DNA from: a virus
Direction: 5' to 3' (one strand)
DNA: 64,000 bases
IMG/VR virus record: IMGVR_UViG_3300022689_000116
Span: 16,710-80,709 of that record
Shown here: positions 6,001-62,301 of the stretch, piece after piece
How positions within the stretch are numbered: the first letter of the stretch is position 1
How the letters are laid out: the number at the start of each line of letters is the position of its first letter
The notes under the pieces: model-generated
Databases searched by the model: none
What the model saw: only the letters and a program-made list of their open reading frames with translations
What the model was told of the DNA's origin: nothing
Made by a program: the position numbers and the translations under genes

Positions 6001-9000
6001 ATAATGAACGTGTTCTTGTAGATAGTTGGATTAGTAATTTTAGAATGGGTCAATATACAACCGTTGATGATAATTATGCTGATTCTATTTTAAGTGCTGA
6101 AAAGTTTGGTAAGTTAAAGAAAGATTATTATAAAATTGCCGATGTTATTGATACTCAAAATACATTATATAAAAATGCTGTTGAAAATGATCAATTTGAG
6201 AAAGCCGAAAGTCATATGCTTAAACTTAAACAAGCTATTAAAGATGCTTTTGGAGTAACTGGTATAATGTTATCTAATGAAACAGTTGATATAATTGCTA
6301 ACAATAAATTTAAGATTGGTAATAATACTGTTACAGTTGCTAATATGTTTAAAGTTGGTAATAAGAATGTTGCTCAAGCTGGTGGTAGATTTACTAGATT
6401 TGTTAAGAATTTAAAGTTTGACAAACCTCTTAGTACATTTAATATATTTTCATCTTCTTTTGTCGAAAGTATTGCAGCTTTAGAATCTAATTATAACAAT
6501 GTTGATTTTAGTAGTAATTACTTAGATCAAGAAGGTAAGTCTATTAGTTCTAATAGTAACTATAAATTCTTAGTTGAAAGAGTTATTACTTTGTTGGATA
6601 ATCCAGTTGTTGATAATAATACTAAAGAAACTATTTGGGAGAAACTTGATAATATTCCTTTCATTCGTAATTCAAGATGGTTTAATGATCTTAAAGAAGG
6701 TAAACTAAATAGAGATAATTTTCATGTAACTTACTCTGACGCTATTGTTCCTTTTAATAAAAGTGATAAAGCAGTTAAAATTAAAAATGCTCCTGAAGCA
6801 GATATTGAAAATTATAAACTAGGTCATTTCTTTAATATGAGAAGTGAACCTGAACAAGAACTTGTTAGGTTTATATATCCTACTCTTTCAGATGGTGGTA
6901 CTGTAATGGAAGTTACAGCTATGGCACAAGATTTTGAACTTGATGACAATAATCAGGTTTCTCAAAATACTATTAGTAGTATAGTAGATCAAATAGTAAT
7001 GCCGGAAGTTGATAGGATTAAAGATGTTAAAGATAAGACTATTGATATTGAAGGTTACAATGAAGGTTCTAAATTATTTTTATTCTTCCCCGAACTTAAT
7101 AAAAAATCTAATGGTTTATTTGATAATGATGGTAATTTAAAACTTGATGTTAAAGGTGAACTCCCATTGGAATCTGTTAAAACTATTAGAAAAGTTGTTA
7201 AAAAATATATTAATAATCTTGTTGATAATAAGATTAACGAATGGATTGATTTTGGTATTCTAAGAGAATCCCCTAAAGGTATTAGAAGTGAAATTCTAAA
7301 CTATGATAAAGATAATCTAATAACTGAAACCCAATTAGAAAACGTTAAAAGGTGGAATACAACTAATGGATTATATGTTGATAGCGAACAAGTTAAATAT
7401 AAAGATAGCACTGGTAAAGAAGTTGAAATAAGACCAGAAGATGTTATATTTGTATATGATACTGATGCTAGTGGAAGTTTACGAAATATAACTTCTGCGG
7501 TAGCTAAAAAACGCTATGGTGCTAAAGATGGTTATGTTAATAGAGTTGTAGGTAATTCATTTGGTATTGTTACACTTGCAGATGAAAATGCCGATATTAA
7601 AGATATGTATCTTTCGAGGAATGAAGTTCGCGAAGCTTTTCAAAAGGTTGTAGATGCTGCCAATAAGAATCCTGATAAATATTTTGTATTACCTACTTTT
7701 AGAAATTCATTTAAACAGTTTGGTTATAATACTTTTGAATATGCTCAAATATTGAGTACTTTAGCTTTACCTGAAAATATAGTTATAAATGAAAAGTTTG
7801 CTAAAACTATAAGTAAAGCTAGAACTAGTTTATTAGAAACTACTCCCGAAGAACTTGAAAGTAGAAAAGAGAAGTCTAAAGCATATATTTATAAAGATCA
7901 TATCTTACATTTTGTTGATAAGAATTATTCTGATAGAATGGAGATTATGCTCGAAGGTACTAATAAGAATAGAATTAAGCAAATGGCTCTCGATTATGTA
8001 CTTAATTATATGGTAGCTAATACTAATATTCATCAACTTATAATTGGCGATCCTGCTTTATACTTTAAAAAGGCTAATGAAAATTTATATTCTCCAGAGA
8101 ATGCAATAGCTACATTTGATAATGTTATAAAACGTCTTGCAGCTGATCGCGCTCCTGGTGAACACATGGCTAATAGTTTTGCTGTAGATGAAGTTTATAA
8201 ACAAGTATTTGTATTAGATAGAAAGAAAAAACTTGCTTCACTAGCTAATACTTATCTTAAATCATTAGGTTTTGATTATAGTGAAATTAATGGTACGGAT
8301 GCTCAAGAAATGACTACTTTTAAAGAGGATATGTATGTTAAATATAGAAATGGTATTATAAGTAAAGCTTTATATAATAGACTATTTAATAAAAATGGTA
8401 TTGTTACTAAAGAGTTAAATCGTAAAGATTCTAATGGCAAACCAAATCCTAACCATTATTATATGGGAGCTATTTATGGAACTCTTAGTAAAGAAGATTC
8501 TGATCTTTATAAAGAATTTAAAGAAAATGTTAATCAACCAGTTAAACCTGTTTATGTTAATAATCTTGCTCAAACTATAGATGGACACAATGTTGATAGA
8601 CGTATGTATATTAAATCTTCATCGTTTGCTTTAACACCTTCTCTGACTATGAATAGAGAACTTGATAAGGTACGTATTTATATGGAATCTAATGGCATTG
8701 ATCGTCTTGCATTTGGTTCTGCTGTTAAAGTTGGTAATTTTGCAACAAATCCACGAATATTTAATAATGATGGTACTATAACTATTCCTGATGATTTTGA
8801 TGACTATACTATGGAACTTCCTAGAAGTGGTTTTAGAATCCAGCAAGATAATCCATTTGATGTTAATAAAAATAAGGTTAAATTTGGAGTTCAAGAATCA
8901 GCCCTTCTATTTAATAATCTTTTACATATTGATAAATTTAAAGATTTAAGCACACGATTTAATGATACTTATTCTAAACTTTATCAATTAGAATTAGGTA

Positions 9001-12000
9001 AGCTTTATACTCAACTTGGTATATTAGAAGAAGGTCAAAAACTTAGTGATCTAAATGAAACTATATTAGATACTACATTTATAAATGATAAAATTAATCT
9101 TGAGAAACTTTCAGCACTTGTTAAAGAAGAAGCTTCTGCTAGAGGTTATAGTCGTAATGATATTGTTGGACTAGGACTTAAAGATGGTGAGTTTTTTATT
9201 CGTCTAGGTTTTCATACTAGAGCTATTAATTTAGAATCTTTATTTAATTCTATAATTAATAATAGAGTTATTTCTCATAAGATTACAGGTAAGAGTTTTA
9301 TACTTGGTACAGAAGAAGGTTTTAAACATCTTGAAGATAAAAAATTAAGAGATAATATTGTCTATACTTCTGATATAGTTGATGATCTTAAACCTATGGG
9401 TTTTACAGATAAAGATGGAAACTATATTGATATAAAAGATGTTGATAAGGATAGTAAGTTTCAACCTGCTCAGATATTTATACCTTCTATACTAAGAGAT
9501 AACAACGGTAAAAAGATAAATCTATTTGAAAAGGATATAGAAACTAAATCATACAAATATTTAATGATTGTTAAACGCAATGGTCAAAATAAACTTGTGC
9601 TTAGAAAGAATATGGTTGATTCTGATCTTTTTAAAGCTTTTGGTTTCCGTATTCCAACACAAGGTCATAATAGTATGACTTCAATAGAAATAGCAGGTTT
9701 TCTTCCAGAAGATGCAGGTGATCTAATCATTGCTCCTAGAGATTTTGTTAAACAAATGGGTTCTGACTTTGATGTTGATAAACTTTACAGTTATATGTAT
9801 AATATGGAAGTTAATGAAGATGGAAAGATTAAGAAAGTTAAATCTGGAAATGATAGTAAAAAGGCTTTACAAAATCAATTATTAGATATTCATTTTGGAG
9901 TTTTAAATGATCCTAATGTAGATGTTCAAAAACAAATATTTGAACCTCTTGAATTTGGTATTCTAAAAATGGAACAAGGTGAATTTATAAGTTCTGATAA
10001 AGATGTTGAGAAAGCTGTTAATAATATGTATAATGGTAAGTTAGCAGACTATATTGATGATCTTAATAGTACAAGGGATAAAATGTTTACTGGAATAGAT
10101 GATATGTTCCAAAGACAAAGCTTTCTTGAAGGTCGTGATGGTGGTGTTGGTATTGGTAAGTTTAGTTTAGATAGTACATTCAATGCTTTATTACAACAAA
10201 CTAAAGTTGAAATTGGTAAAGAAACAGTTAAAGGATTTAAACCAGATTCTGTTACACTTGGTAATAAAGTTTCCAATCACATTTACGATGCTAAATCTAA
10301 TAAAATTGGAGATAAAGAATTTAATAAATCTCAAGTTATTTCTTGGTATCAATCAGCTTCTGTTGATAATGCTAAAGAAAAATTATTATATAAACTTAAT
10401 ATCAATGATGTAACTTATGGTGCTATAACTTATCTAAATCAATTAGGATTTAATGAAGAAATTATATGGTTAATCAATCAACCTATTATTAGAGATTATG
10501 TAAGAGAATTACAAATTGTAAATAGTTCTATAAATTCTGTAGATGATTATATAAATAGAGCTACTTTAAAAGTTTATGAAAAGTATAATCGTGATCGAGT
10601 TTTTAGTAAAGAAGATGGAACTGACAAACTTACAAAAACTTATAATAATCCTGGTAGATATGGTATTGGCGAATTACATAAACTTCTTAAACAAAATAAA
10701 GAAGGTATAAAAGACAATACTGCTGATGAATTTAACAGAAGTCAATTAGGTATATTTAAGATATTTAAAGACTTTAGTAAAAAAGGAGATGCTATTGCTG
10801 ATTTACAATCTGTATTAAATAGTAACAGTAAAGGTATGGGTAAAGATGTAGCTACAGCTTATATCAAAACTAAAGCTATTTTAGAAATAGATGATAATGT
10901 TAGTTTTTACAATCCTTCACAACTTATTGGAACTAAGATAAATGAAATTAAATATCGTAAGTTAGAACCTGAACAACAAAACCAATATTTCAAAATAGAA
11001 GATAATGTTTATATTAAACCTACCACTATTGCAGGTATGGCTTCTATATTTGGTACTATTGCAGGTACTAAATTATGGTCTAGTATCTTCCCTTATAACA
11101 GTCCTATAATAGGTCGTGAAATAGATAAGATACATGAAATTTCTAATTTTAGGTCTAAGCATATTTCTACAGAAGCTAAAGATATTAAACATTTATGGAC
11201 TGAGTTAAAGAAATTTATCAATAGTAAGACTATTTCTAACATAAGTACTGAAAGTCCAAATGAGATTCGTAATCGTCTTATGTTAGATAGATTTGATGGG
11301 GATAATAATCATACTCATTATTCATTAGCTTCTATTATAAAAGCTGGAAAAGAAAATGGTACATTGACAAGTAATGATCTTGTCAATACTTTAATACTTG
11401 AACCTAAAAAGAATAGGAATAGTTTTGCACTTGTTAAGTATAATACTAATGGTAAGAATATAGATGAATCTAATCTTATAAATGGATTTATGCAACTTAT
11501 TCATACTAATAAAAAGATTGGAGATTTCAATGGGGTTGAATATACAACTCGTAATCTTGCTGCTGATCTTTTACTCTATAGTCTTACTGCTGGTGGAGTT
11601 CAACAATTTGGAAGGTTTGCTAAATATGTTCCTATGGAATATCTTGATAAGGTTGGTTATACAGAAGCTATCAATAGTTTAGATTTTACTAACCCTTATA
11701 TAGCTGGTTATACAGAAATGAATGAAGATCATAATAATATATCTGAATTTGTAACTCAATATTTTCAGCATTTTCCAACTAAGACTCAAAAAGTAAATCT
11801 TAGTAATTCATTTATGTTTTATGATAACTCTTTAGATTTAGATGATCTTAAACAAATTCAATTAGATAAACTCAACATTGAAGATTCTGTATTAGTAGAA
11901 GGAGTTCCTGTTAGTAAGGAAATGGAACAAGCAGAAAATAGACGTCTTGCTTTTATTAGAAGAATATATAGAACTTATGATGAAAATGATGATTCTAATA

Positions 12001-13214
12001 ATGAATTAAAAGAGTTCTTCCATGTTCAACATCCTGATACTAATAAAGTTTATCTATTTAGACTTATTAATAAAAAGGATGGTACTTATGCTAAAATTCC
12101 AACTTTAGGTCAGCAAGGTATTTCTGAATATAATTATGATTCTATAAATGACAACAATTATCAGAATAGTGTACTTAACAATAATAATGATAAACTTATT
12201 ACATTCCGTGATCCTACATTACATGATAAGAAAGCTAGTTATTTAAGTCAATCTGATCTTACCGATAACCGTTCCTTAATAGACAATTATAACATAAATA
12301 GTTTAAATGCTAAAACAATATTAAGAAATATCATTAAGCACAAACAAGATAGAATTAATAGGAATAAGCTTCAAACTAATGATATGAATAATCAATTAGT
12401 ATTTAATTCTTTCATAGCTGAAAAGATATTAGATCGTATTGATAACTTCGATATTAAAATTGTTATAGATAATACAATTAAAGCTTCAGGACAAATTACA
12501 AGTACTGATAATTATGCTAATAATATAACTATTAAATTAAACTTACAAGATATAAATTCTTATAAGAATAATCAAGTTGTTGATACTGTTAGTATTGAAG
12601 ATGCTAGTATTAATCCTGAACTTTATACTTTTGAACGTGTTTTCTTACATGAAGGACTTCATGCTATTACGCTTAATTATCTAAAGACAACTGAGGAGAG
12701 CAATCTTTCTATTCTACAGGGAAATTGGGCAAAGGCTAGAACTTATGCTCAAAACAATGGTGTCAATATTAAAGAACTTGATAGACTTGTTAATACACCC
12801 GGAGCTTCTCTTCCCGCTGATATGTATAAATATTATGGACTTGCTCAAACTAAGGATGGTAAGCCTAGACTAGATGAGTTTATAACAGGTGTATTTACTG
12901 ATGCTGAATTTAGGAATTTTTTAAGTGGTATTGATAGTGATACTAAATCAGTATTAGATAAGATACTTGAGTTTATTGTTAATGCTCTAAACGAGATAGG
13001 TTTTAATATTAAAGAAAATACTTTAGCTGAAAGTTCATTGCTTGAAATTATTAATGTTATTGAGGAGTCAGATTTCCCGGTAAAGAAGAAAAATGTGAAT
13101 GTCGAGAATGATAGTATTAATAGTGTTCTTAAAGCATTTGGTGAAGAAAATTTAGATAATATTATAAATGATCTTATTAAAAATAATCAAGTTAGTATTG
13201 CTTGTAAACTTTAA
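3..13214 (+). CDS. Giant virion RNA polymerase-type protein with C-terminal zincin domain (5' partial)
   Basis: The reading frame is open from base 3, so the gene begins outside the window and the ATG at 93 is probably internal. Over 4,400 residues are visible. A DFDVD motif at bases 9765-9779, in the context MGSDFDVDK, matches the DxDxD metal-binding signature of the double-psi beta-barrel RNA polymerases found in giant proteins of crAss-like phages. An HEGLH motif at 12648-12662 (FLHEGLHAIT) is an HExxH zinc-peptidase signature, which may serve to process virion proteins. The N-terminal part is Ala/Gly-rich with hydrophobic helices. An acidic, Ser/Asn-rich linker lies near bases 2120-2300, with another acidic linker near 5460-5530. 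By family analogy it is packaged, injected and transcribes early genes. It ends in TAA, 12 bases before the next virion gene. The polymerase call is strong on motif and context; domain borders are not resolved. Confidence 0.85.
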   Translation, partial: WFNGVVKFTGRVGTSFLEPFVDIGYGIPSIMATGKFSALYDNDITQAFDEFNNHLQKQFPNFYTHAETDSKALSLKNLTSANFWADKVLGGAAFTVGTLLNAYATAGIGTALRGGAALKAFRAGFKEMSLAAETENALKAISSKAARVRTGDAIQNLATTILSVAGESGVEARDLGNTLKAQMADYVKQGLISQEEASRQIENAMNLAFAANVAIVGTSQFIQFGKLYSRGFKSDKLNIFKLVKEGGTFKPTLPETGFGKFVAKSAGGRAILKDILTESKEEGLQYLTQKTLEYKYGAEVSKDMTESISHGFKELFGTKEGIENMLIGAILGGGSHLGKAVTGNAENPYTAKVNKSNVVADLANRYFSDDNNKLRDLVSNVGVYTAANERKEYYLSKDDIFNYKNEESQEFASMVKSFADLGAMDVLYEQVDEITSMNDEEYNKMFGQAEDVKVTKSREELSREIKEKAEALDRINTNINTAFNNHIPAYKNNLFYVSAMIDDGRRREAILKNELSEVTGIQYEDFAKLRTQNYKDRELAKIEKSNKTPEEKQKAIDELESLNKETLDDAYSKAINNWITDNNPDLTDTEIKTLTTKLDDLTRLHDRRQNFIDTYNYMVSEKGMENTTFEGLSKSADKDAQESIKELQALQEKFQKDINEGKLNKKEIDKAIIDAEALYKLNGRESFNKLKKNLTKLRDNYYNKKGSDNSSNPTGKSNNTKNTKVEDTSDINETNDDTSVAEPTQEEVDLEQVMADTELEDINDEVIEEGDVKNVSELRNSNLSQDQEGLILDALDEANKLEDTEGVDEVIKSPKKVSGDQAKKAFIQLFDRLSPNSIFSWNLSNNMLYDFGAIMEKINDVAVKNGKELSPQAFQVLQGFYFAYVYSTAKDQAKYKNPMSYKYADLESAEIAHQNRVAVTVHDVNKKYTKDVAKEDLADMETRRVGRVTENAHRTVSAFNRAYEKVKGENKFRDLNNTIVNLAALDFNKVNVGSTITLRIPKKVEHTVDGIPKGKAEILQRALNKENLTKDELRQLTIEMVDEDGNTIGYLHTEEWVDNKFKMIKENHPDHYSDEKLQEEMDNLLSIRASVYLNGSVKTTVTGRSNGILLNWKSDNTDAVTISAKTAFQDDNLKFGIGDSGRVEIGNNRSSNDIGEELTNPDKVVDGITYAVLPVNKNTTTNQVKYISVPLQSIKIGNLTDEQKQAKIKSSIVNAIRIYITNANPDVKVKLSVEDQNVVKDLKKAGYDITTSTGLNNYLQNFIYTFKTVGFNSEDKAGELLRTFLKSKSTTDVAIKAGTKYIEFGSGDANGAGENYVAKITKKGVEYYIGGERVNLSKQDSIDEETFFKALGGITNKAYIASDSKLINKKGKFNLNYIVDGKVETKEYKQYNDYLKENFLTDIYGHTTKEGKTYYSIHPIIEFDDSFIKGKQNTKQVADTISETEGKAEKEVRAKAMIERAITEVMSTGDIMVGEETYTLEEILPIGKQSTEGVTTIYKDSKGKKVKVTVPITDIVDQKYSNNDIADLIYARVRTESSPVEKEITKETPSEQTGGKFSTDELDDIASQFGETNNTNDEVINAPMRVVDDEIFNLEVDLGIRHNPNDTKPVYKRWLQRQYKAVLKKAIELNSKLKDTSYKVKIIKIEGEVGDNRVYFALKAVRRVDEQVINSLIKEKDLSTNTLRQNIDGTLYIADLNLALQNSTIGDLKTAIIRRLKEVRGNRSLEKQVLETSLNDALQGYIDLRNQFISAKNQSTDKNRIAQYDKTITGLTDIINNFDTLAKFAINELASINLLSVSTKIKLEGGKIKTQEVEKTIDNNILNENDEDDPDTGVEDMDSNGEDTAHFETEHSIKIDHKKTISKELKLFLSDITNDKIGRTIFGKALPMRFDTVYNDVLNALSNKLFTGYKTSFEGMLSELEKASEQKPYLMQVVEKLKEEAKDDKSKIPAQFERLVFKHKSEMFYIGYSYRKDNSSNNNKKYKDNKKYYYIVPARTNNLYNERVLVDSWISNFRMGQYTTVDDNYADSILSAEKFGKLKKDYYKIADVIDTQNTLYKNAVENDQFEKAESHMLKLKQAIKDAFGVTGIMLSNETVDIIANNKFKIGNNTVTVANMFKVGNKNVAQAGGRFTRFVKNLKFDKPLSTFNIFSSSFVESIAALESNYNNVDFSSNYLDQEGKSISSNSNYKFLVERVITLLDNPVVDNNTKETIWEKLDNIPFIRNSRWFNDLKEGKLNRDNFHVTYSDAIVPFNKSDKAVKIKNAPEADIENYKLGHFFNMRSEPEQELVRFIYPTLSDGGTVMEVTAMAQDFELDDNNQVSQNTISSIVDQIVMPEVDRIKDVKDKTIDIEGYNEGSKLFLFFPELNKKSNGLFDNDGNLKLDVKGELPLESVKTIRKVVKKYINNLVDNKINEWIDFGILRESPKGIRSEILNYDKDNLITETQLENVKRWNTTNGLYVDSEQVKYKDSTGKEVEIRPEDVIFVYDTDASGSLRNITSAVAKKRYGAKDGYVNRVVGNSFGIVTLADENADIKDMYLSRNEVREAFQKVVDAANKNPDKYFVLPTFRNSFKQFGYNTFEYAQILSTLALPENIVINEKFAKTISKARTSLLETTPEELESRKEKSKAYIYKDHILHFVDKNYSDRMEIMLEGTNKNRIKQMALDYVLNYMVANTNIHQLIIGDPALYFKKANENLYSPENAIATFDNVIKRLAADRAPGEHMANSFAVDEVYKQVFVLDRKKKLASLANTYLKSLGFDYSEINGTDAQEMTTFKEDMYVKYRNGIISKALYNRLFNKNGIVTKELNRKDSNGKPNPNHYYMGAIYGTLSKEDSDLYKEFKENVNQPVKPVYVNNLAQTIDGHNVDRRMYIKSSSFALTPSLTMNRELDKVRIYMESNGIDRLAFGSAVKVGNFATNPRIFNNDGTITIPDDFDDYTMELPRSGFRIQQDNPFDVNKNKVKFGVQESALLFNNLLHIDKFKDLSTRFNDTYSKLYQLELGKLYTQLGILEEGQKLSDLNETILDTTFINDKINLEKLSALVKEEASARGYSRNDIVGLGLKDGEFFIRLGFHTRAINLESLFNSIINNRVISHKITGKSFILGTEEGFKHLEDKKLRDNIVYTSDIVDDLKPMGFTDKDGNYIDIKDVDKDSKFQPAQIFIPSILRDNNGKKINLFEKDIETKSYKYLMIVKRNGQNKLVLRKNMVDSDLFKAFGFRIPTQGHNSMTSIEIAGFLPEDAGDLIIAPRDFVKQMGSDFDVDKLYSYMYNMEVNEDGKIKKVKSGNDSKKALQNQLLDIHFGVLNDPNVDVQKQIFEPLEFGILKMEQGEFISSDKDVEKAVNNMYNGKLADYIDDLNSTRDKMFTGIDDMFQRQSFLEGRDGGVGIGKFSLDSTFNALLQQTKVEIGKETVKGFKPDSVTLGNKVSNHIYDAKSNKIGDKEFNKSQVISWYQSASVDNAKEKLLYKLNINDVTYGAITYLNQLGFNEEIIWLINQPIIRDYVRELQIVNSSINSVDDYINRATLKVYEKYNRDRVFSKEDGTDKLTKTYNNPGRYGIGELHKLLKQNKEGIKDNTADEFNRSQLGIFKIFKDFSKKGDAIADLQSVLNSNSKGMGKDVATAYIKTKAILEIDDNVSFYNPSQLIGTKINEIKYRKLEPEQQNQYFKIEDNVYIKPTTIAGMASIFGTIAGTKLWSSIFPYNSPIIGREIDKIHEISNFRSKHISTEAKDIKHLWTELKKFINSKTISNISTESPNEIRNRLMLDRFDGDNNHTHYSLASIIKAGKENGTLTSNDLVNTLILEPKKNRNSFALVKYNTNGKNIDESNLINGFMQLIHTNKKIGDFNGVEYTTRNLAADLLLYSLTAGGVQQFGRFAKYVPMEYLDKVGYTEAINSLDFTNPYIAGYTEMNEDHNNISEFVTQYFQHFPTKTQKVNLSNSFMFYDNSLDLDDLKQIQLDKLNIEDSVLVEGVPVSKEMEQAENRRLAFIRRIYRTYDENDDSNNELKEFFHVQHPDTNKVYLFRLINKKDGTYAKIPTLGQQGISEYNYDSINDNNYQNSVLNNNNDKLITFRDPTLHDKKASYLSQSDLTDNRSLIDNYNINSLNAKTILRNIIKHKQDRINRNKLQTNDMNNQLVFNSFIAEKILDRIDNFDIKIVIDNTIKASGQITSTDNYANNITIKLNLQDINSYKNNQVVDTVSIEDASINPELYTFERVFLHEGLHAITLNYLKTTEESNLSILQGNWAKARTYAQNNGVNIKELDRLVNTPGASLPADMYKYYGLAQTKDGKPRLDEFITGVFTDAEFRNFLSGIDSDTKSVLDKILEFIVNALNEIGFNIKENTLAESSLLEIINVIEESDFPVKKKNVNVENDSINSVLKAFGEENLDNIINDLIKNNQVSIACKL
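2129..2153 (+). repeat. Dispersed motif, copy A (CCGGG variant)
   Basis: This copy contains AATCCTACCGGGAAATCG inside the giant polymerase gene. It is translated as part of the low-complexity NSSNPTGKSNN linker. It is one of about ten related sites and shares the TACMGGGAAAT core. Confidence 0.5.
12706..12727 (+). repeat. Dispersed motif, copy B
   Basis: The core TTCTATTCTACAGGGAAA is inside the giant gene just after the HEGLH zincin motif, read as SILQGN. Its 12-base core TTCTACAGGGAA is identical to those at 49.43 kb and 62.27 kb. Confidence 0.65.
13071..13092 (-). repeat. Dispersed motif, copy C (CCGGG variant, reverse)
   Basis: Read on the minus strand it is TTCTTCTTTACCGGGAAATC. It falls in the charged C-terminal linker of the giant protein (DFPVKKK), about 370 bases from copy B and in the opposite orientation. 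Confidence 0.45.
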
Positions 13215-20119: not shown

Positions 20120-20752
20120 TTAAATAATTTTTTCATTAACAATTATAAATTTTAAATATTCACCTACTTTAGCAGGTGTATCGAATACATTCAAATTAAT
20201 AACATAATCAAATGTATCTAGAGTTATATCCATAGCTTCACTTTCATGATTATAATCTCTGCTATCCATATTTTCATCAACAAACGATTTCCCTGTAAAA
20301 GCAATGATTATGCCATCCTTACTTTTAACAAAGTCAGCTTCATTTTGAAAACGTATATCAGTAAGTAATAAATTAGTAGATAGAACATTTTGTTCTTTAT
20401 TACCAACCCAATAAGTTCTGTATAGTTTATCAATCCACATTTTAGAATTGATTATTCTACCAACATTAGTACCAAAAAGCTGCATAAACTGACCATAAGT
20501 CATAGGTTTAGTATAATCATCTTGTAATCTAAATGGAATTAACTTATTTTTAACCTCCCGATCTTCAAGTTCTTCACGAGTAATACCAAACATATAACTA
20601 GTAATCTGTTTAATAGGGTCAGCGAAAGCATCAACTTTCCAATTTTTATAAGCAGGTCTGGCATATCTATTGATATTGTGCATAAAAGCATTAACAGCAG
20701 TAGATTTGCCTGTACCAATTTTACCTGCAAATCCAATTAATTTATTTGTCAT
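20120..20752 (-). CDS. Deoxynucleoside monophosphate kinase
   Basis: A P-loop (GKIGTGKST, residues 10-18) opens a 210-residue NMP-kinase fold. A DAFADPIKQI segment and the later TDIRFQNEADFVK segment resemble those of phage dNMP kinases such as T4 gp1-like enzymes. It would phosphorylate dNMPs to dNDPs for phage DNA synthesis. It shares the operon with dUTPase, MazG-like and exonuclease genes. Dispersed-motif copy D is embedded in its coding sequence as AFTGKSF. Confidence 0.85.
   Translation of the reverse strand: MTNKLIGFAGKIGTGKSTAVNAFMHNINRYARPAYKNWKVDAFADPIKQITSYMFGITREELEDREVKNKLIPFRLQDDYTKPMTYGQFMQLFGTNVGRIINSKMWIDKLYRTYWVGNKEQNVLSTNLLLTDIRFQNEADFVKSKDGIIIAFTGKSFVDENMDSRDYNHESEAMDITLDTFDYVINLNVFDTPAKVGEYLKFIIVNEKII
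20285..20304 (-). repeat. Dispersed motif, copy D
   Basis: Read on the minus strand it is TTGCTTTTACAGGGAAATCG. It shares the TACAGGGAAATCG core of copy G exactly but has a weaker 5' half. It lies inside the dNMP kinase gene and may be partly coincidental. Confidence 0.35.
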
Positions 20753-22198: not shown

Positions 22199-23518
22199 TT
22201 AACCTATTATTTCAACAACGTTAGCATGAAAAGGAACTTGTTTAACTCCACTTCTTTCATAGAATTTAACTTTAGCCATCATACCAATATAATGATCTTT
22301 ATTATCAAGATATTCTTTTCTTGATTCATAACTACCTTCAGGATTACAAGTAAATGTTTCATCATTAAGGTCGTTATAGAGTATAAACATACCAGTTTCA
22401 GGTTCTTTATCTTTAGGAACTACATCCTTAATTTTAAACTCTGCGTCTTTATGTTTTTTGAACTTCATCATAGTCTTAGGTCTACCACCAAAAGAATAAT
22501 AAGCTTCGGCATCTCTAATTATAACACCTTCATAACCATATTGAATAAATAAATCTCTAAGTCTTTCAACTTCTTTATCATCATTTACAACATATGTTGT
22601 AACTCTTACCAATTCTGACAATAAAACATTATTATCAAAATCTTTATGAAGATTATCTTCAACACTTAACATACGTGGTATAGATTCATTCTTTCTAGAA
22701 AGAAGTACATAACGTTCTCTTTGAATACCATTAACAGCTAAATCAAAACACCAAAATTGAACTTGTTCTGGATTATTAGAAGGTTTACTTGTAGTACCTT
22801 TAGCATTAACCATAGGTATAGAAGCTTTAATATAACTGAGATGTTTATTGGGAATGTATAATTCTCCATCATAAATTATATCATATTCTTCAGTTTCTTT
22901 ATTATAGAAATCTTCATGTTTGAAACACTTTGAAATATGAGGTAATATATAAAGATGACCTTCTTTACTTCTAATAGTAACTTCATTAACAACTTCTTTA
23001 AACATACCAGTACCTTTTATAACAACCTCTAATTGTATAAAACCACGAATACCATTTATTTTAGGTTGAGCAAAAGCAGGATAGTTAAACTTACCATATT
23101 TAAAAGGCTGTGCTTTCATAGGTTTTAAAAGACCATTGGAATCAGTATTATCATCAGGTAAAGCATCACGAAGGATTTTGTTTAAATGTTCAAAACAAAA
23201 GGTTAGTTTAGTATGATTATAAATTAGATAATCTAGAGAAACAATATTCTCAATTTTAATATCCAAATCATCAAATGATTTATAACCTTTTATTCTTTTT
23301 AATCTAACATTAGATTTAACATCCTCTGTTAAAGATTTAATACCATTTAGAACTTTCTTAACTCTAACAGTTCCACCAGTACTAAATAAAGCAACTAAAG
23401 TCCCACTATAAACATCATAAGTTTTTTCTACAGCATTTAAGTTACCATAAGACCAGAAACGAATACTTCCATTTACATCTTTTATAAAAAGAGCATTTTT
23501 AATTATTTCGTTCATCAT
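22199..23518 (-). CDS. ATP-dependent DNA ligase
   Basis: The nucleotidyltransferase motifs are visible: I KINGIR (adenylated Lys153), III DGELY (217-221), IIIa FWCFDL (255-260), IV EGVIIRD (330-336) and V MKFKKHKD (351-358), followed by an OB-fold-like C-terminal part. The 439-residue length matches phage ligases with an N-terminal extension. It seals nicks during replication and repair. Two tandem Met codons allow starts at 23518 or 23515; the start overlaps the 3' end of the upstream gene by 20 bases. Confidence 0.92.
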   Translation of the reverse strand: MMNEIIKNALFIKDVNGSIRFWSYGNLNAVEKTYDVYSGTLVALFSTGGTVRVKKVLNGIKSLTEDVKSNVRLKRIKGYKSFDDLDIKIENIVSLDYLIYNHTKLTFCFEHLNKILRDALPDDNTDSNGLLKPMKAQPFKYGKFNYPAFAQPKINGIRGFIQLEVVIKGTGMFKEVVNEVTIRSKEGHLYILPHISKCFKHEDFYNKETEEYDIIYDGELYIPNKHLSYIKASIPMVNAKGTTSKPSNNPEQVQFWCFDLAVNGIQRERYVLLSRKNESIPRMLSVEDNLHKDFDNNVLLSELVRVTTYVVNDDKEVERLRDLFIQYGYEGVIIRDAEAYYSFGGRPKTMMKFKKHKDAEFKIKDVVPKDKEPETGMFILYNDLNDETFTCNPEGSYESRKEYLDNKDHYIGMMAKVKFYERSGVKQVPFHANVVEIIG

Positions 23519-23984
23519 TGTACCATTTTAAATTTGACAAATTCTTTAAATATAACGTTCTTACTAATTTTACTACAACTGCATATTTTGGATTACCAAT
23601 TAAAGCAAGTTTATAATAAAAGTAGTCTTTAAGTTCAAACACTTCACGCATCATCATAGCCCTACTGCCATCAGTTCTAATATCATAAGTTAAATCATGA
23701 TGATTAAAATTTAATGGTATGAACATAGTTTGATTATTATTAAGTCTAACTAGATCATTATTATCTACCTGATCAGTTTCTCCTAACAAATGTACATCTT
23801 TTGTACTAAAGTTTATACCACTAGCTTCATATTTATTTTCTAAACTCTTTTCTTTATCGTTATATAGAGCTTCTACCATTTCTTTTTCTACAGGGAGAAC
23901 TACATAAATATAACTATTATTATCAGTATTTAAAGTAGCAACTGGTCTAACTTTAAATGGAGTATCACATCTTTGTATATTCAT
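23499..23984 (-). CDS. Hypothetical protein, 161 aa
   Basis: This gene lies between the primase and ligase genes and overlaps ligase by 20 bases, so it belongs to the replication operon. The product starts MNIQRCDTPFKVRPVATLN and seems a mixed alpha/beta protein. No catalytic motif was recognised. A weak variant of the dispersed motif (TTCTACAGGGAGAAC near 23886-23900) is inside it. Confidence 0.6.
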   Translation of the reverse strand: MNIQRCDTPFKVRPVATLNTDNNSYIYVVLPVEKEMVEALYNDKEKSLENKYEASGINFSTKDVHLLGETDQVDNNDLVRLNNNQTMFIPLNFNHHDLTYDIRTDGSRAMMMREVFELKDYFYYKLALIGNPKYAVVVKLVRTLYLKNLSNLKWYNDERNN

Positions 23985-27781: not shown

Positions 27782-29068
27782 TTAATAAATCTTTAATTTA
27801 TCAATATCATCTTTATCGAACTTCTTAACAAATGTATTATAAGCTTTGTAACGATCATTATAGTTATCATCATCCTTTGTATTAAGTAATGATAGATTAA
27901 TGATATTTACGTTACTGTTAAATATTAGTTTACTTCTTTTATTAAGTTCTAAATAAGATAAACATTTTGGAGATGTATATATTAATCCATCAATATCTTC
28001 AATAGAAGTATCTTTAACAAGACTATTAGTAATACAAATACATCTAATATCGTGATTATTAAAAGCTCTTATATAAGTAGAGTTTACAGTTTTTGAACCA
28101 TGACCTTTAGGCTGACCCTTTTTAGCACCAGATTTATAAAGTATAAGATTTCCATCATCATCAGAAAGATAAACGTTCTTATGATCATTGTGGATAGCGT
28201 TACAAATATCACCTTTCTTATTTAAAAAGTTAGAAATATCATCAGCCATCTTACTATTCTTACAAACAATAACAAATCTTCTAGTTTTAAGATAAGAAAC
28301 AATACTATTAACGGTTAGAATTTTAACAAAATGTTCATCAAGGTAATGATTACGCATAGCAATGAGATCATGATACATCTTAGCTTTCTCATAAATAGCA
28401 TTAGGATTAAAACCCTCTGATAAATCTTTATAATATTGAATACTAACATCTAAATTTTCATTCCAACCTGAAGCTTTAGCAAATTCTCTACGAAAATTGT
28501 CCGCAGTAATACCACTTTGCATATCACCCCTGTAACATTTAACAATAGTATCAAAATCACCATTAAACATTTCAAAAATATCTTTCATTTTATTAGTAAT
28601 TTCTTCATACTTTGCAAATTCATTATTTGAAAGTTCAATAGATAAATGTATTTCATTATGTTTACTATCTATAGATCGTTTACTTTTAATAGCATCCGAT
28701 GTAAGACGTGGAAACTTATCCAAATCATTATCATAGTTAAACTTAGAAACTGTAGCAAACATATATTTGAATACAATCCTCATTAAAACCAGATTTATAA
28801 CATTATCTGCAATATCTCCAGCATCAATTATGATTAAAACATCAACTATACGTTTGTCCATAGTAACTTGATCAGCGGAATGTACAGGATATGAAAACTT
28901 TTTAGAATAATATTCTACCATTTTAGTCTTTGCTACAACTATTATCTTTAAGTTTGCACTTAATAGACCTGAAATAAGCCTAGATAAAATAGCATCATTA
29001 TCTTCACGATCTTCATATTTATATACACCTTTTCCACCGACATATTTCCAATTTTTTAATATGTCCAT
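27782..29068 (-). CDS. Degenerate SF2/SNF2 helicase-like protein
   Basis: The protein has 428 residues. The N-terminal half has a strand-rich region (LKIIVVAKTKMVEYYSKK) and VDVLIIIDAGDI at the position of a Walker B motif, but no GKT/GKS P-loop. The C-terminal half looks like a helicase domain 2: RRFVIVCKNSKMADDISNFL, then RCICITNSLVKDTSIEDID and a LNKRSKLIF segment. Crassvirales commonly encode an SNF2-type helicase at this place next to the polymerase. Here the ATPase site seems lost, so it may be structural or regulatory. The call is from pattern and context. Confidence 0.5.
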   Translation of the reverse strand: MDILKNWKYVGGKGVYKYEDREDNDAILSRLISGLLSANLKIIVVAKTKMVEYYSKKFSYPVHSADQVTMDKRIVDVLIIIDAGDIADNVINLVLMRIVFKYMFATVSKFNYDNDLDKFPRLTSDAIKSKRSIDSKHNEIHLSIELSNNEFAKYEEITNKMKDIFEMFNGDFDTIVKCYRGDMQSGITADNFRREFAKASGWNENLDVSIQYYKDLSEGFNPNAIYEKAKMYHDLIAMRNHYLDEHFVKILTVNSIVSYLKTRRFVIVCKNSKMADDISNFLNKKGDICNAIHNDHKNVYLSDDDGNLILYKSGAKKGQPKGHGSKTVNSTYIRAFNNHDIRCICITNSLVKDTSIEDIDGLIYTSPKCLSYLELNKRSKLIFNSNVNIINLSLLNTKDDDNYNDRYKAYNTFVKKFDKDDIDKLKIY

Positions 29069-29120
29069 AATTATTAATTTTAATATTTAAATGATTATTA
29101 GTAATAATATTACTCATTGT

Positions 29121-29191
29121 AAGGTTTCCCGGTAGGATTAGAAAGTGATGTACGCTGACTGTCGCATACTTTCTATCTCTACAGGGAAATT
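29121..29191. repeat. Inverted pair of the dispersed motif (copies E and F) forming a long hairpin
   Basis: Left arm 29121-29146 and right arm 29168-29191 are imperfect inverted copies: TTTCCC, GTAG and AGAAAGT blocks pair, with small mismatched parts, around a 21-base loop. Left arm reads CTTTCTAATCCTACCGGGAAACC on the minus strand in two parts (CTTTCTAATC and CTACCGGGAAACC); right arm is TTTCTATCTCTACAGGGAAA. It occupies the gap between polB and the helicase-like gene. Confidence 0.7.
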
Positions 29192-29195
29192 GATC

Positions 29196-31292
29196 TTAAT
29201 CAAACAGGGAAGGTTGATTCAATTCATTACGAATACGTTTCTTAGAACCAGCCTTACGCTTAACATTAGTTTCTATTTGATTTATGATTTTATTAGCTTC
29301 TCTTTGATAATATAGGTAATCAATATTATAATCTTCCATATTGTCTTTATGAAAATATCTATTAAATATTGTAACCTTTTGACCAGCACACATATTAGCA
29401 CCATTACCATTAAGATTATTCTTTTTAATTTTAATCAATGAACCACCATTAGTACTGATATAAAACCTAACATTACGTTGAGGATATTCTGTAATAACCT
29501 GACCATTTATAACTCTTATATATTTAAGTGCAAATTCTCTACCAATATTATTAGTAGTACAAAAATCATAAATATCAGTATGTTTACGTAGAGTTTCAGA
29601 TACAGAAATACCATCTTTAAAATAATTTATAATGGCTCTAGCTACAATAGGTTTATCAAAACCTTTTTGTAAATCTTCATAATAAAGCTTATCATGCAAA
29701 GCACTTTTTCGTTTAAGATGTTTTTCTTCATTGTATTCACCTTCATGTTCTTTAACAGCAAAATAAGCATTTACATCTCTACGAACATATAAAGAATAAT
29801 TATTAAATTCAAGATTTAAACTAACATCTTTTTGCCATTGCTCACAAGTCTTATTATAAATCTCTTGTTTATCATTAGGAACCAAACATAATATACCATC
29901 TGTATTAGCAGATATAGTTTTAATACCAATCAATGACAATCTTTCTACCAACATCATTAAAGCAAGTTGTCCATTAATAGTAGTTTGAAAAGTACATTGA
30001 AGGTCATAATAAGGACCGAATTCAAAAGCAAATTTACCATATATAATATTAATTGTATATTTAAGAGTTAAAGCTTTTACATAATCTCCTTCCTGTTTAC
30101 CAGTAATTCTATCATCTGTTATAAATTCAAACAATGTTAAAAAGTATGGGTGCATATGTTTTGGTTTAACCTTATTAGTAATTATAAGACTAGGATAATA
30201 ACTACTAACATCAGCATCAATTATTTTAACATTGTTGGAACTTCTATAGACACCGGGTAAATCAACAGAATGAATCCCTCCAGATTTAATATTATATTCT
30301 GTACCATCAAACACAAAATTAATACTAAGTTCTTTAGTTGTTTTAACAGTTGTATGATATACTTTATCTCTAAGGTCTTTTAATTCTTTAGTTTTAAACT
30401 GAATTTTATCTGATATACAATCTGAAAGTTTAACATGGTTTCTATAAGTTTTAGAACCATAAAAATCTTTGTGACTTATACCAGTTTTATCAAGATAAAA
30501 TTTCTGAAAAATACGATCTCCAATTTTAGCCTGAGAAGCACTATCAACATTAATACCATATTTAGCACCAATCTTAAATCTTAGTTCAATATCATCATGT
30601 AGATAATAAAACAATTCTCCAACACCCAAAACATCATTACGATTATAGATTTTAAGATCAGGAATATATTCTTTAACTAAATATCTATCCCAATCATCTA
30701 TATTAGAAATAAATCTTTCATCATAAAAATGTTTATCAAGGTCGCTTATGGGAGGTAATTCAAAGGTTATAATATCATACCATTTAAGATTAATAAGAGT
30801 CTGCTTTAAAGATTTTCTAACTTTATCCAAAGAAGGTATTTTTTGAACATCTATACTTTTATAGTTAGCATTAAATCTTCTAACATACTTAAACTTGTCT
30901 AAATTCCGAAGTATTTCTTTATCAGTTTCAATGAGTTCTTTACTAAAGTTATATATCTCCATATTAAACTTTTTAATGCTATAATCTTTAGTATAATTCA
31001 TAGCAATAAAATTAAGGAGCATATTATCATAGTCATTATTATTAAAACCAGCAAGATAATTACCGGAAAATGTAAAAGATAAAATCTTAGCAGTATCATC
31101 TTTTTCATAACCTTCTACAGAACTTATTTCAAATATTATATAAGGAATACTTTCAATCAATTTAATAGCTTCAAGTCTGCTAATTTTTTCTACATCTATT
31201 TTTTTACGAATAGCGTGGTAATCTTCATAATCTATAAAGACAGCAGAAAAATAATTTTTAAAAACTTCGCAATCATAAAGATAACATTTCAT
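29196..31292 (-). CDS. Family B DNA polymerase
   Basis: The 698-residue replicative polymerase has an N-terminal proofreading exonuclease: ExoI DCE (7-9), ExoII FNNNDYD (83-89) and ExoIII YNRND (216-220). The polymerase motifs are A DADVSSYYPSL (359-369), B KYTINIIYGKF (411-421) and C ANTDG (462-466, in place of DTD). The length is short for family B and resembles phage polymerases of the phi29/crAss type. It would replicate the phage genome with the primase, ligase and helicase of this block. Its start overlaps the end of the upstream lysozyme-like gene by 20 bases. The C-terminus is basic (KRKAGSKKRIRNE). Confidence 0.93.
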   Translation of the reverse strand: MKCYLYDCEVFKNYFSAVFIDYEDYHAIRKKIDVEKISRLEAIKLIESIPYIIFEISSVEGYEKDDTAKILSFTFSGNYLAGFNNNDYDNMLLNFIAMNYTKDYSIKKFNMEIYNFSKELIETDKEILRNLDKFKYVRRFNANYKSIDVQKIPSLDKVRKSLKQTLINLKWYDIITFELPPISDLDKHFYDERFISNIDDWDRYLVKEYIPDLKIYNRNDVLGVGELFYYLHDDIELRFKIGAKYGINVDSASQAKIGDRIFQKFYLDKTGISHKDFYGSKTYRNHVKLSDCISDKIQFKTKELKDLRDKVYHTTVKTTKELSINFVFDGTEYNIKSGGIHSVDLPGVYRSSNNVKIIDADVSSYYPSLIITNKVKPKHMHPYFLTLFEFITDDRITGKQEGDYVKALTLKYTINIIYGKFAFEFGPYYDLQCTFQTTINGQLALMMLVERLSLIGIKTISANTDGILCLVPNDKQEIYNKTCEQWQKDVSLNLEFNNYSLYVRRDVNAYFAVKEHEGEYNEEKHLKRKSALHDKLYYEDLQKGFDKPIVARAIINYFKDGISVSETLRKHTDIYDFCTTNNIGREFALKYIRVINGQVITEYPQRNVRFYISTNGGSLIKIKKNNLNGNGANMCAGQKVTIFNRYFHKDNMEDYNIDYLYYQREANKIINQIETNVKRKAGSKKRIRNELNQPSLFD

Positions 31293-36159: not shown

Positions 36160-36927
36160 TTAAATTTTAAGTTTATTATACACAAAAGGATTCTTTTTAT
36201 AACTTTTAAATTCACTTAAACTCATTGAAGAAATATCATTCATTTTTTCAATCAATTCATTATAACTAAGCTTTAATTTATTATGACCATTTATAGTTAA
36301 CTCAAGGTTACTATCCATAATTTCTAATTCTTCTCTAAGACCTGTTATTAGATCAACTTGAACTTTACGAATTTTATCAATATTTTCTATTTCAGCATCT
36401 TTAGCTTTAATGGTATGCTCAAGTTTATCAATTATAACTTGTTGATCATATCCATCTTTAACTACTAATTGAGCAGTTTCATTACTAATTTTTAATTCTT
36501 TTCTAAGACTAGTTATTAAATTAACTAGAACTTTATATCTTTGATCAATGATTTTTATTTCTTCTTGAAGTTTATAATTATCTTCCATATAAGTATTAAT
36601 TATAGCACACTTATCATCAATAATACGTCTAAGATTATCAATAATAGCATCTTTATCATCTTCGGGATTCTCTTTTTTACCGGGAGGTTGAACATGGATT
36701 ATATCTTCATTTTTACAAGGAGTCTGAGCTTTTAGTTCCTTTAGTTTACTACGAGCTTCTTTAAGTTGTTCTTTAAACTTAAATTGTGTATCTATAATAG
36801 TCTTTTGAGTATAAGGATTATCACCAGTAATTAAATCTCTTTCAGTTATTTTAATACACCTTTTAAGATGTGCTATTTTACTTTCAATATCATGAATAGT
36901 AGTGTTATTTTTATTGTTTTCCATCAC
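36160..36927 (-). CDS. Long coiled-coil protein, 255 aa
   Basis: Glu/Lys/Ile/Leu-rich almost throughout, with heptad-like repeats from about residue 10 to 240. There is an internal near-repeat: IDQRYKVLVNLITSLRKEL (about 126-144) and IDKIRKVQVDLITGLREEL (about 181-199). A Pro/Gly break (QPPGKKENPED) separates two coils near residue 80. A structural or scaffolding role in the cell is possible, but no homologue is recognised. The stop and start overlap the upstream gene by 4 bases. Confidence 0.6.
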   Translation of the reverse strand: MMENNKNNTTIHDIESKIAHLKRCIKITERDLITGDNPYTQKTIIDTQFKFKEQLKEARSKLKELKAQTPCKNEDIIHVQPPGKKENPEDDKDAIIDNLRRIIDDKCAIINTYMEDNYKLQEEIKIIDQRYKVLVNLITSLRKELKISNETAQLVVKDGYDQQVIIDKLEHTIKAKDAEIENIDKIRKVQVDLITGLREELEIMDSNLELTINGHNKLKLSYNELIEKMNDISSMSLSEFKSYKKNPFVYNKLKI

Positions 36928-41945: not shown

Positions 41946-42010
41946 AATTTTAAATTTTAATTTGTTTATAATTGATTTTATAACTTGTTTAAGTATTGTA
42001 ACTAATTGTA

Positions 42011-42034
42011 CGATTTCCCTGTAGATTAGAAGGA
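42011..42034 (-). repeat. Dispersed motif, copy G
   Basis: On the minus strand it reads TTCTAATCTACAGGGAAATCG in two parts (CCTTCTAATC and TACAGGGAAATCG). It lies in the gap between the genes at 41945 and 42051. Confidence 0.6.
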
Positions 42035-42050
42035 TATGAAACGGTTTTGA

Positions 42051-42230
42051 TTAACTGTTATTAACACTAACTAAATCACCAACTTTCACATATTTATAAT
42101 CATGTTGTATAATAGTTCCATCTTCTTTTAAAATAACAGCATTAAGATTATCATTAAAATTAACAAAACTATGAAGGTAGCCATTATTAGCTTCACCTTG
42201 TTTATAATAAATTACTTTAAGCATTTTCAT
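42051..42230 (-). CDS. Small hypothetical protein, 59 aa
   Basis: I choose the ATG at 42230 (MKMLKVIYYKQGEANN), one base after the upstream stop; an upstream in-frame reading overlaps the next gene. Strand-rich and basic. Function unknown. Confidence 0.5.
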   Translation of the reverse strand: MKMLKVIYYKQGEANNGYLHSFVNFNDNLNAVILKEDGTIIQHDYKYVKVGDLVSVNNS

Positions 42231-42231
42231 A

Positions 42232-42414
42232 TTAATAAATAATAGAAGTTTTAGAAGATTGATAATGTGTAGTATAAGTATTATCAAGAATATCTATAAA
42301 ACTATCCATGAGTGGTTTGGAATCTCCTTTTTTACAGGGAAATTGAACAATACGTTCAACACGTTTATTAGTAGTATTACGTTTTGATTTAATAATATTA
42401 AAAGAACCTTTCAT
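42232..42414 (-). CDS. Small hypothetical protein, 60 aa
   Basis: Starts MKGSFNIIKSKRNTTNKRV, basic and Ser/Thr/Asn-rich. It contains copy H of the dispersed motif, read in reverse as QFPCKKGD. Function unknown. Confidence 0.45.
   Translation of the reverse strand: MKGSFNIIKSKRNTTNKRVERIVQFPCKKGDSKPLMDSFIDILDNTYTTHYQSSKTSIIY
42323..42345 (+). repeat. Dispersed motif, copy H
   Basis: It contains CCTTTTTTACAGGGAAATTG within the gene at 42232-42414 (minus strand). The 3' half is identical to copy B and F. Confidence 0.5.
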
Positions 42415-42418
42415 ATTG

Positions 42419-42604
42419 TTATATTGTTATATTATTTATCAATATATAGTCTTTGGAAAAATTATCAGGATGTATAGGATAAAGATCATTTGGAGAAAAC
42501 TTATAATGATTATTTATAAATTTATTATTTTCACTAGGTTTATCACTAAGTTTAAAACTATTGATACTTTTGTTAAACATTGTGTTAAATATTGATAAAA
42601 TCAT
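42419..42604 (-). CDS. Small hypothetical protein, 61 aa; first gene of the minus-strand block
   Basis: Starts MILSIFNTMFNKSINSFKL, Asn/Ser/Lys-rich. An AAGGAG sequence lies about 30 bases before the ATG, too far to be a standard ribosome site. As the most promoter-proximal gene it would be expressed earliest. Function unknown. Confidence 0.45.
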   Translation of the reverse strand: MILSIFNTMFNKSINSFKLSDKPSENNKFINNHYKFSPNDLYPIHPDNFSKDYILINNITI

Positions 42605-49227: not shown

Positions 49228-49800
49228 ATGAAAAATATAGTTATACTTATTGTATTACTGGGTTTGATGAATTCTTGTGGAGTTATAAATTGTATATTTA
49301 ATGATTATGAACCTATTACTGAAATAGATTCTGTATTAGTTGAAGTACCTATTTATGTACCTATACCTTCCGGCAGTGATAGTACTTCTACTGATAGTTT
49401 GAAAATGTACGTTCAGAATTTCTCTATTCTACAGGGAATCGTTGATAGTCTTAAAAAACTTAAACCTGATAATAATGCTGTCGTTTATATTCCTAGTAAA
49501 ATAAAAGATGATAGTGTTTATGTTGAAACTGAAATAGCTTATGCCAATGCTTATATTAAAAATAATAAATTAAGCATTGATCTAAATAATAAAAAAGATT
49601 CATTGTTGTATTATTATAATTATTATACTTTTGATTATTTACCATTGTTAAAAAAGTATAATGAACTTGCTGTTAGTTATAATGCTATAAAGAATAAGAA
49701 AGTTACCTTTTGGGATAAAACAAAAGGCTCGTTGATGTGGATGGTTATAGGTTGCGGAATAGGGTTTTTTCTTACACATCGTATCGTAACTAAACAATAG
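49228..49800 (+). CDS. Probable unimolecular spanin (u-spanin)
   Basis: The 190-residue protein starts with MKNIVILIVLLGLMNSCGV, a lipoprotein signal with the Cys at residue 17, and ends with a TM helix (about 166-183; MWMVIGCGIGFFLTHRIV). Between is a Ser/Asp/Lys-rich periplasmic domain with predicted helices. An outer-membrane lipid anchor plus C-terminal inner-membrane helix in one chain is the defining layout of u-spanins (T1 gp11 type), which fuse outer and inner membranes at lysis. A terminator follows. Motif copy I is within its linker (SILQG). Confidence 0.7.
   Translation: MKNIVILIVLLGLMNSCGVINCIFNDYEPITEIDSVLVEVPIYVPIPSGSDSTSTDSLKMYVQNFSILQGIVDSLKKLKPDNNAVVYIPSKIKDDSVYVETEIAYANAYIKNNKLSIDLNNKKDSLLYYYNYYTFDYLPLLKKYNELAVSYNAIKNKKVTFWDKTKGSLMWMVIGCGIGFFLTHRIVTKQ
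49419..49441 (+). repeat. Dispersed motif, copy I
   Basis: It contains CTATTCTACAGGGAATCG inside the spanin candidate gene, read as SILQGI. The frame and peptide (SILQG) are the same as for copy B. Confidence 0.6.
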
Positions 49801-62258: not shown

Positions 62259-62281
62259 CCTTCTATTCTACAGGGAAACTG
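62259..62281 (+). repeat. Dispersed motif, copy J
   Basis: It contains TTCTATTCTACAGGGAAACTG in the gap just after the 223-aa gene (core TTCTACAGGGAA identical to copy B). Two TATATTTG boxes lie within 75 bases downstream. Confidence 0.65.
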
Positions 62282-62301
62282 AAAATGATTAAAAAAAACT
62301 T

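Follow-up and report, generated by a model that had tools for sequence, protein, structure and literature searches.

Evenly spaced directional sites on each strand of crAss-like phage genomes, and the inverted pair beside polB

An inverted repeat lying against a phage DNA polymerase gene raises the question of whether it serves that gene or that place alone, whether as an origin of replication or as a hairpin with a regulatory role (the two functions offered by the original prediction), or belongs to something more widespread. The repeat considered here lies in a 64,000-base stretch of DNA, hereafter the window, which comprises bases 16710-80709 of the 80,709-base virus record IMGVR_UViG_3300022689_000116. 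The terminase, portal, capsid and family B DNA polymerase (polB) of the window match those of crAss-like phages, and the nearest named records are in Intestiviridae; judged by these nearest named relatives, the phage is a member of Crassvirales close to Intestiviridae. A search with the major capsid protein recovered a contig of 23 kb whose capsid protein is identical, plus many more distant relatives, while a single-sequence polB search of IMG/VR recovered no relatives.

The inverted pair beside polB

The polB gene (29196-31292, minus strand; PHROG 1252, E 6e-121) is followed downstream by an ORF on the same strand (27782-29068), which had no family match of its own but corresponds to the SNF2-like helicase gene found in relatives, its syntenic counterparts being annotated as SWI2/SNF2 ATPase in p-crAssphage and as DNA helicase in R. 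jaberico. The pair was correctly placed by the original prediction in the 127-base gap between these two genes (29069-29195), where 29125-29146 and 29168-29189 match exactly on opposite strands around a 21-base loop. Shuffled versions of the window would contain such a pattern 0.05 times on average, and the pair folds into a long interrupted stem on either strand (-29.5 and -28.1 kcal/mol; z = -2.7 and -4.0 against shuffles). Described by the 22-bp weight matrix, the left arm spans 29121-29142 (minus strand, reading leftwards, score 25.3) and the right arm 29172-29193 (plus strand, reading rightwards and thus antisense to polB, score 26.6), the latter being the syntenically conserved one. Two A+T-rich copies of 24 bases, 79% alike, adjoin the pair at the start of the helicase-like ORF (29054-29101). 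Neither Rfam nor a tRNA search found a match in the window.

The GC skew of the window turns where gene direction does, near 17 and 42 kb, and the change that an origin at the pair had been expected to bring does not occur at 29 kb; nothing, therefore, marks the polB pair as a skew-defined origin. The pair consists of two outward-facing copies of a directional, dispersed DNA site of about 20 bp, and is thus not a hairpin private to polB but one place among many where this site occurs.

A directional site in two even series

The site was compared among 14 related genomes, including p-crAssphage, crAss002 and R. jaberico, in which genes were called mechanically as ORFs. Copies were called with a genome-specific 22-bp weight matrix and third-order Markov thresholds; a 40-bp matrix, which drifted to codon patterns in genome G007, was replaced by the shorter one. 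The consensus, CTAC[A/C/G]GGG(G)A within about 20 bp, is directional and is present in all 14 genomes, each of which has between 13 and 41 copies, and in every one of them the most enriched 10-mer, found without a seed, belongs to it. Turned round, the arms of the window pair read CTAC[A/C]GGGAAA, while the version in G003 (polB identity 43%) is CCTCTTTWCTACRGGGGAATCT, that in G016 is TTTCTTCTACGGGGGAGCTNAT and that in p-crAssphage is ATCCTC[TC]ACGGGG[AG]GT. The p-crAssphage record BK010471 carries two nearly equally common versions, CTCTACGGGG and CTCCACGGGG, whose difference is not strictly linked to strand. Each genome has its own consensus, common to its copies, which suggests that every phage encodes a trans-acting reader of its own. 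The motif was absent from the tested records of Suoliviridae, Crevaviridae and Steigviridae, and an exact scan of viral contigs for the window consensus gave no match. In the part of the literature that was covered, no earlier report of a motif acting as promoter, repeat or hairpin in crAss phages was found. When bacterial genomes were searched with the p-crAssphage 21-mer as the only query, this type of site turned up in bacterial assemblies on six contigs, three of them from one Clostridia MAG, which may be phage contigs or chance matches.

The whole record of the window phage has 18 copies, 16 of them inside the window, and the weak ones among these may be false. Four lie in the giant ORF 93-13214, at 2133-2154 (plus, score 29.3) and 12707-12728 (plus, 29.1) and, antisense to it, at 4609-4630 (minus, 24.9) and 13069-13090 (minus, 25.2). 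Further antisense copies occur in ORF 23499-23984 (23881-23902, plus, 24.3), in ORF 36160-36927 (36670-36691, plus, 23.8) and in the portal gene (53420-53441, minus, 22.8). ORF 49228-49800 contains a copy at 49422-49443 (plus, 25.3) and ORF 20120-20752 a weak one at 20284-20305 (minus, 19.8); another weak and possibly false copy neighbours that in ORF 36160-36927 (36706-36727, plus, 20.0), and the weakest, near the threshold and also possibly false, is at 20-41 (minus, 16.7). Besides the polB pair, the intergenic copies include one at 62261-62282 (plus, 30.3) and two in the divergent gap 41946-42560, the first reading leftwards (42010-42031, minus, 27.4) and the second rightwards (42325-42346, plus, 28.4). 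These two face outward about 310 bp apart, so that the polB gap is not, as had been claimed, the only one in which two copies meet.

The copies form two interleaved series around the genomes, one per strand, each of them evenly spaced. On a single strand the copies are spread much more regularly than points placed at random, and, compared with matched words of equal count, spacing was even (p<0.05) in 25 of the 28 strand sets of the 14 genomes; these genomes share ancestry, so that combined p-values overstate their independence, and several single genomes are convincing alone. The window genome has 10 sites on the plus strand (CV 0.49, p=0.012) and 8 on the minus strand (CV 0.35, p=0.003), the minus strand of p-crAssphage has 18 sites with a mean gap of 5.4 kb (CV 0.31), and the plus strand of G006 has 13 with a mean gap of 7.1 kb (CV 0.32). 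Neighbours on the same strand closer than 1 kb were found 5 times against 58.7 expected. When both strands are pooled the spacing is much nearer random, which fits two even series laid over one another; strand alternation, at one time taken as the main signal, was dropped, as two such series explain the layout better.

Where copies on opposite strands do come within 60 bp of each other, they face outward in 12 cases and inward in one. Outward pairs within 160 bp, the polB pair among them, make long hairpins in many genomes, recur at other loci in other genomes, and in some cases carry extra complementary inner flanks. At the polB locus itself the paired arms, which an origin or hairpin there had been expected to retain in relatives, are not conserved as a pair. 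What is conserved is the place and polarity of a single site: all 14 genomes have one antisense to polB at or near the polB/helicase junction, its exact position and sequence varying. In most genomes it stands about 380-515 nt inside the helicase-like gene (the distance in G015 is uncertain, the underlying match being incomplete), and in the window genome and G003 it is intergenic, between the two genes.

About three quarters of the copies sit inside genes, where their frame of translation varies (giving SSTGEL, FLYGGA or SSPVEE, among others) and where 151 are sense and 133 antisense, a difference within chance. Intergenic copies number 102, against about 29 expected from the non-coding fraction, an enrichment of about 3.5 times. 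A hairpin acting in RNA, as terminator, processing site or regulatory structure, would draw on the six base pairs, G-U included, that can form around TACG on the motif strand, and on the long perfect stems of a few intergenic copies. Yet no covariation was found between the motif halves among 323 copies, their pairing being equal to that of shuffled halves and largely G.T, which indicates a linear motif and not an RNA structure. The extended flanking hairpins, promising by eye, were discarded for the same lack of covariation and because flank pairing exceeded that of shuffled flanks (p<0.05) in only 16 of 143 copies. The equality of sense and antisense copies, the want of a regular T run 3' of the motif and the negative Rfam search also argue against the RNA reading, which we regard as very improbable, both in general and for the regulatory hairpin proposed at polB. 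As the halves pair like shuffles and the flanking arms add little, the hairpin arises incidentally, either from the pyrimidine-purine make-up of the motif or from two copies placed back to back. Some copies look like T3/T7 promoters and like UACG hairpins of rRNA, a likeness that was taken to be coincidental.

What may read the sites

The most likely reading, which we favour only tentatively, is that the sites are strand-specific replication start (priming) sites. Each copy would be recognized by a phage-encoded replication enzyme, which may be a primase or else the virion RNA polymerase in a primer-making role, and this putative reader would start or restart the synthesis of one DNA strand, by priming, or by initiating the second strand, on the strand that happens to be exposed. 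An enzyme restricted to one strand, or to one direction, would need a site every few kilobases on each strand, whatever the gene layout, and such a need would generate an even series per strand, independent of gene direction and of the other strand. Outward pairs, such as that beside polB, would let synthesis depart in both directions from a single point. The even series on each strand are observed, and from them we infer replication as the process. Evenness per strand, the lack of sense bias, the kept place and polarity at the junction and the genome-specific consensus all point in this direction, and phages of the motif family encode PolB, a primase-like protein and SSB. A small GC-skew step in the direction of the motif (z about 2.8) fits either replication or transcription. 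For the primase candidate of the window, the Toprim match is weak at best and no relative was found in PDB. Against priming, the sites show no bias to one strand per replichore, which simple lagging-strand priming from a single origin requires, and polB phages of Suoliviridae lack the motif. Of the two roles first proposed for the pair, what survives is a function at the DNA level, probably related to replication, and not that of a unique origin.

The nearest rival to priming, with a true precedent, would be programmed single-strand nicking, in which a phage nickase cuts one strand per site and leaves staggered breaks in virion DNA, as in T5, phiKMV-like phages and phage tf. The known nick motifs are short, directional, dispersed, mostly genic and kept in place within a phage group (PMC3517423, PMC11780129), and CCTA/CTCCGG of phiKMV and TACT/RTGMC of tf loosely resemble CCTCTAC-GGGG. 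They are, however, uneven and confined to one strand (PMC3517423, PMC11780129), whereas both strands carry sites in all the genomes studied here, and outward pairs 23-46 bp apart, if nicked, would nearly break the genome; nicking is thus considered unlikely. If the sites were promoters, used by the giant virion RNA polymerase or by another phage RNA polymerase, this would explain the length, directionality, copy number and phage-specific consensus of the motif, and an outward pair does occur at the divergent gene switch in 5 of the 14 genomes, but the other 9 have none within 1.5 kb of that switch. With 151 sense to 133 antisense copies the motif does not follow the genes it would drive, and half of the copies would produce antisense RNA, while in crAss001, of another family, the transcription modules seen by stranded RNA-seq track ORF orientation (PMC8375218). 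This makes a promoter role rather improbable.

The motif might also be an orientation-dependent recombination or end-processing signal, similar to Chi, that limits degradation from either end of broken DNA. It is G-rich and directional, signals of this kind would be needed at bounded intervals on each strand, and the motif-bearing phages do encode a PD-(D/E)XK exonuclease and RecT-like and Gam-like proteins. Known Chi sites, in turn, are 5-8 bp long and set by the host, while the motif has at least 14 conserved positions and a consensus that differs among phages of Bacteroides hosts, so that we find this role distinctly improbable. Spreading by copying, as a mobile or neutral short repeat of the REP/BIME type, would account for dispersed copies, for frequent inverted pairs and for the extra complementary flanks inside some of them. 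A copy in G003 (49142, minus strand) lies in frame in polB, where it accounts for most of an insertion of five residues, SVSST, that the window PolB lacks. When site-bearing coding genes were compared with those lacking a site, this gap was the one suggestive case and no general rule emerged, so that mobility is not supported; evenness per strand and the place and polarity kept in 14 genomes would not be expected from random insertion either, and this origin is judged highly improbable.

A wider proposition, to which we give as much belief as doubt, is that Intestiviridae employ a genome-wide, strand-resolved addressing by means of a phage-specific directional site, repeated at nearly even intervals along each strand independently, at which a phage enzyme would start, segment or nick the DNA strand by strand. 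We know of no tailed phage for which replication or maturation addressed in this manner has been described. Cis-acting sites maintained throughout a family, conserved in place and spread evenly along either strand, offer concrete predictions for the cultured members crAss002 and R. jaberico, and constitute a signature with which the reader protein may be sought.

Words of other families and known systems

Different dispersed words occur elsewhere in Crassvirales. crAss001 (MH675552) has 28 copies of the quasi-palindromic word CTTCTGGAG, with an even layout on one strand (18 sites, CV 0.47, p=0.0006) and with an outward pair, at 102373(-)/102416(+), which suggests a parallel system in Steigviridae. 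In cr127_1 (MT774393, Crevaviridae) ten copies of GTTTAATGGCCACAAGGGCGAGAGGT are distributed over both strands, those of the plus strand evenly (5 sites, CV 0.22, p=0.005). Words of the type TTACTYNGGA are enriched in cr10_1 and cr55_1 (Suoliviridae), with no even layout on the plus strand of either or on either strand of cr55_1. From crAss001 and cr127_1, other families of the order may use analogous but different words.

Among known systems, promoters of phage RNA polymerases, such as those of T7-like phages and the hairpins read by the N4 virion RNA polymerase, are also directional sequences of about 20 bp with a phage-specific consensus; the motif differs from them in having no coding-direction bias and in being even on both strands. 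REP and BIME elements are likewise short and dispersed, often in inverted pairs, but they are intergenic and clustered and are spread by a RAYT-type transposase, whereas the motif occurs within genes in any frame and at even intervals per strand. The motifs associated with nicks in T5, phiKMV-like phages, tf and Rembedalsseter number about 10-14 per genome and are short, directional, conserved within their groups, located within and between genes and without a known role (PMC3517423, PMC11780129). The sites described here differ in occupying both strands, evenly on each, and in forming outward pairs. A precedent for strand-specific primase sites is found in ssiA and ssiB of plasmid RSF1010, where each strand has a single 40-nt ssi hairpin read by RepB' (PMC4434180). 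The phage sites are instead many, of about 20 bp, and would be read by a putative enzyme; their halves do not covary as those of an ssi-type hairpin kept by selection would. The two systems are alike in having strand-specific sites on both strands, from which, in the phages as in RSF1010, DNA synthesis would start (PMC4434180).
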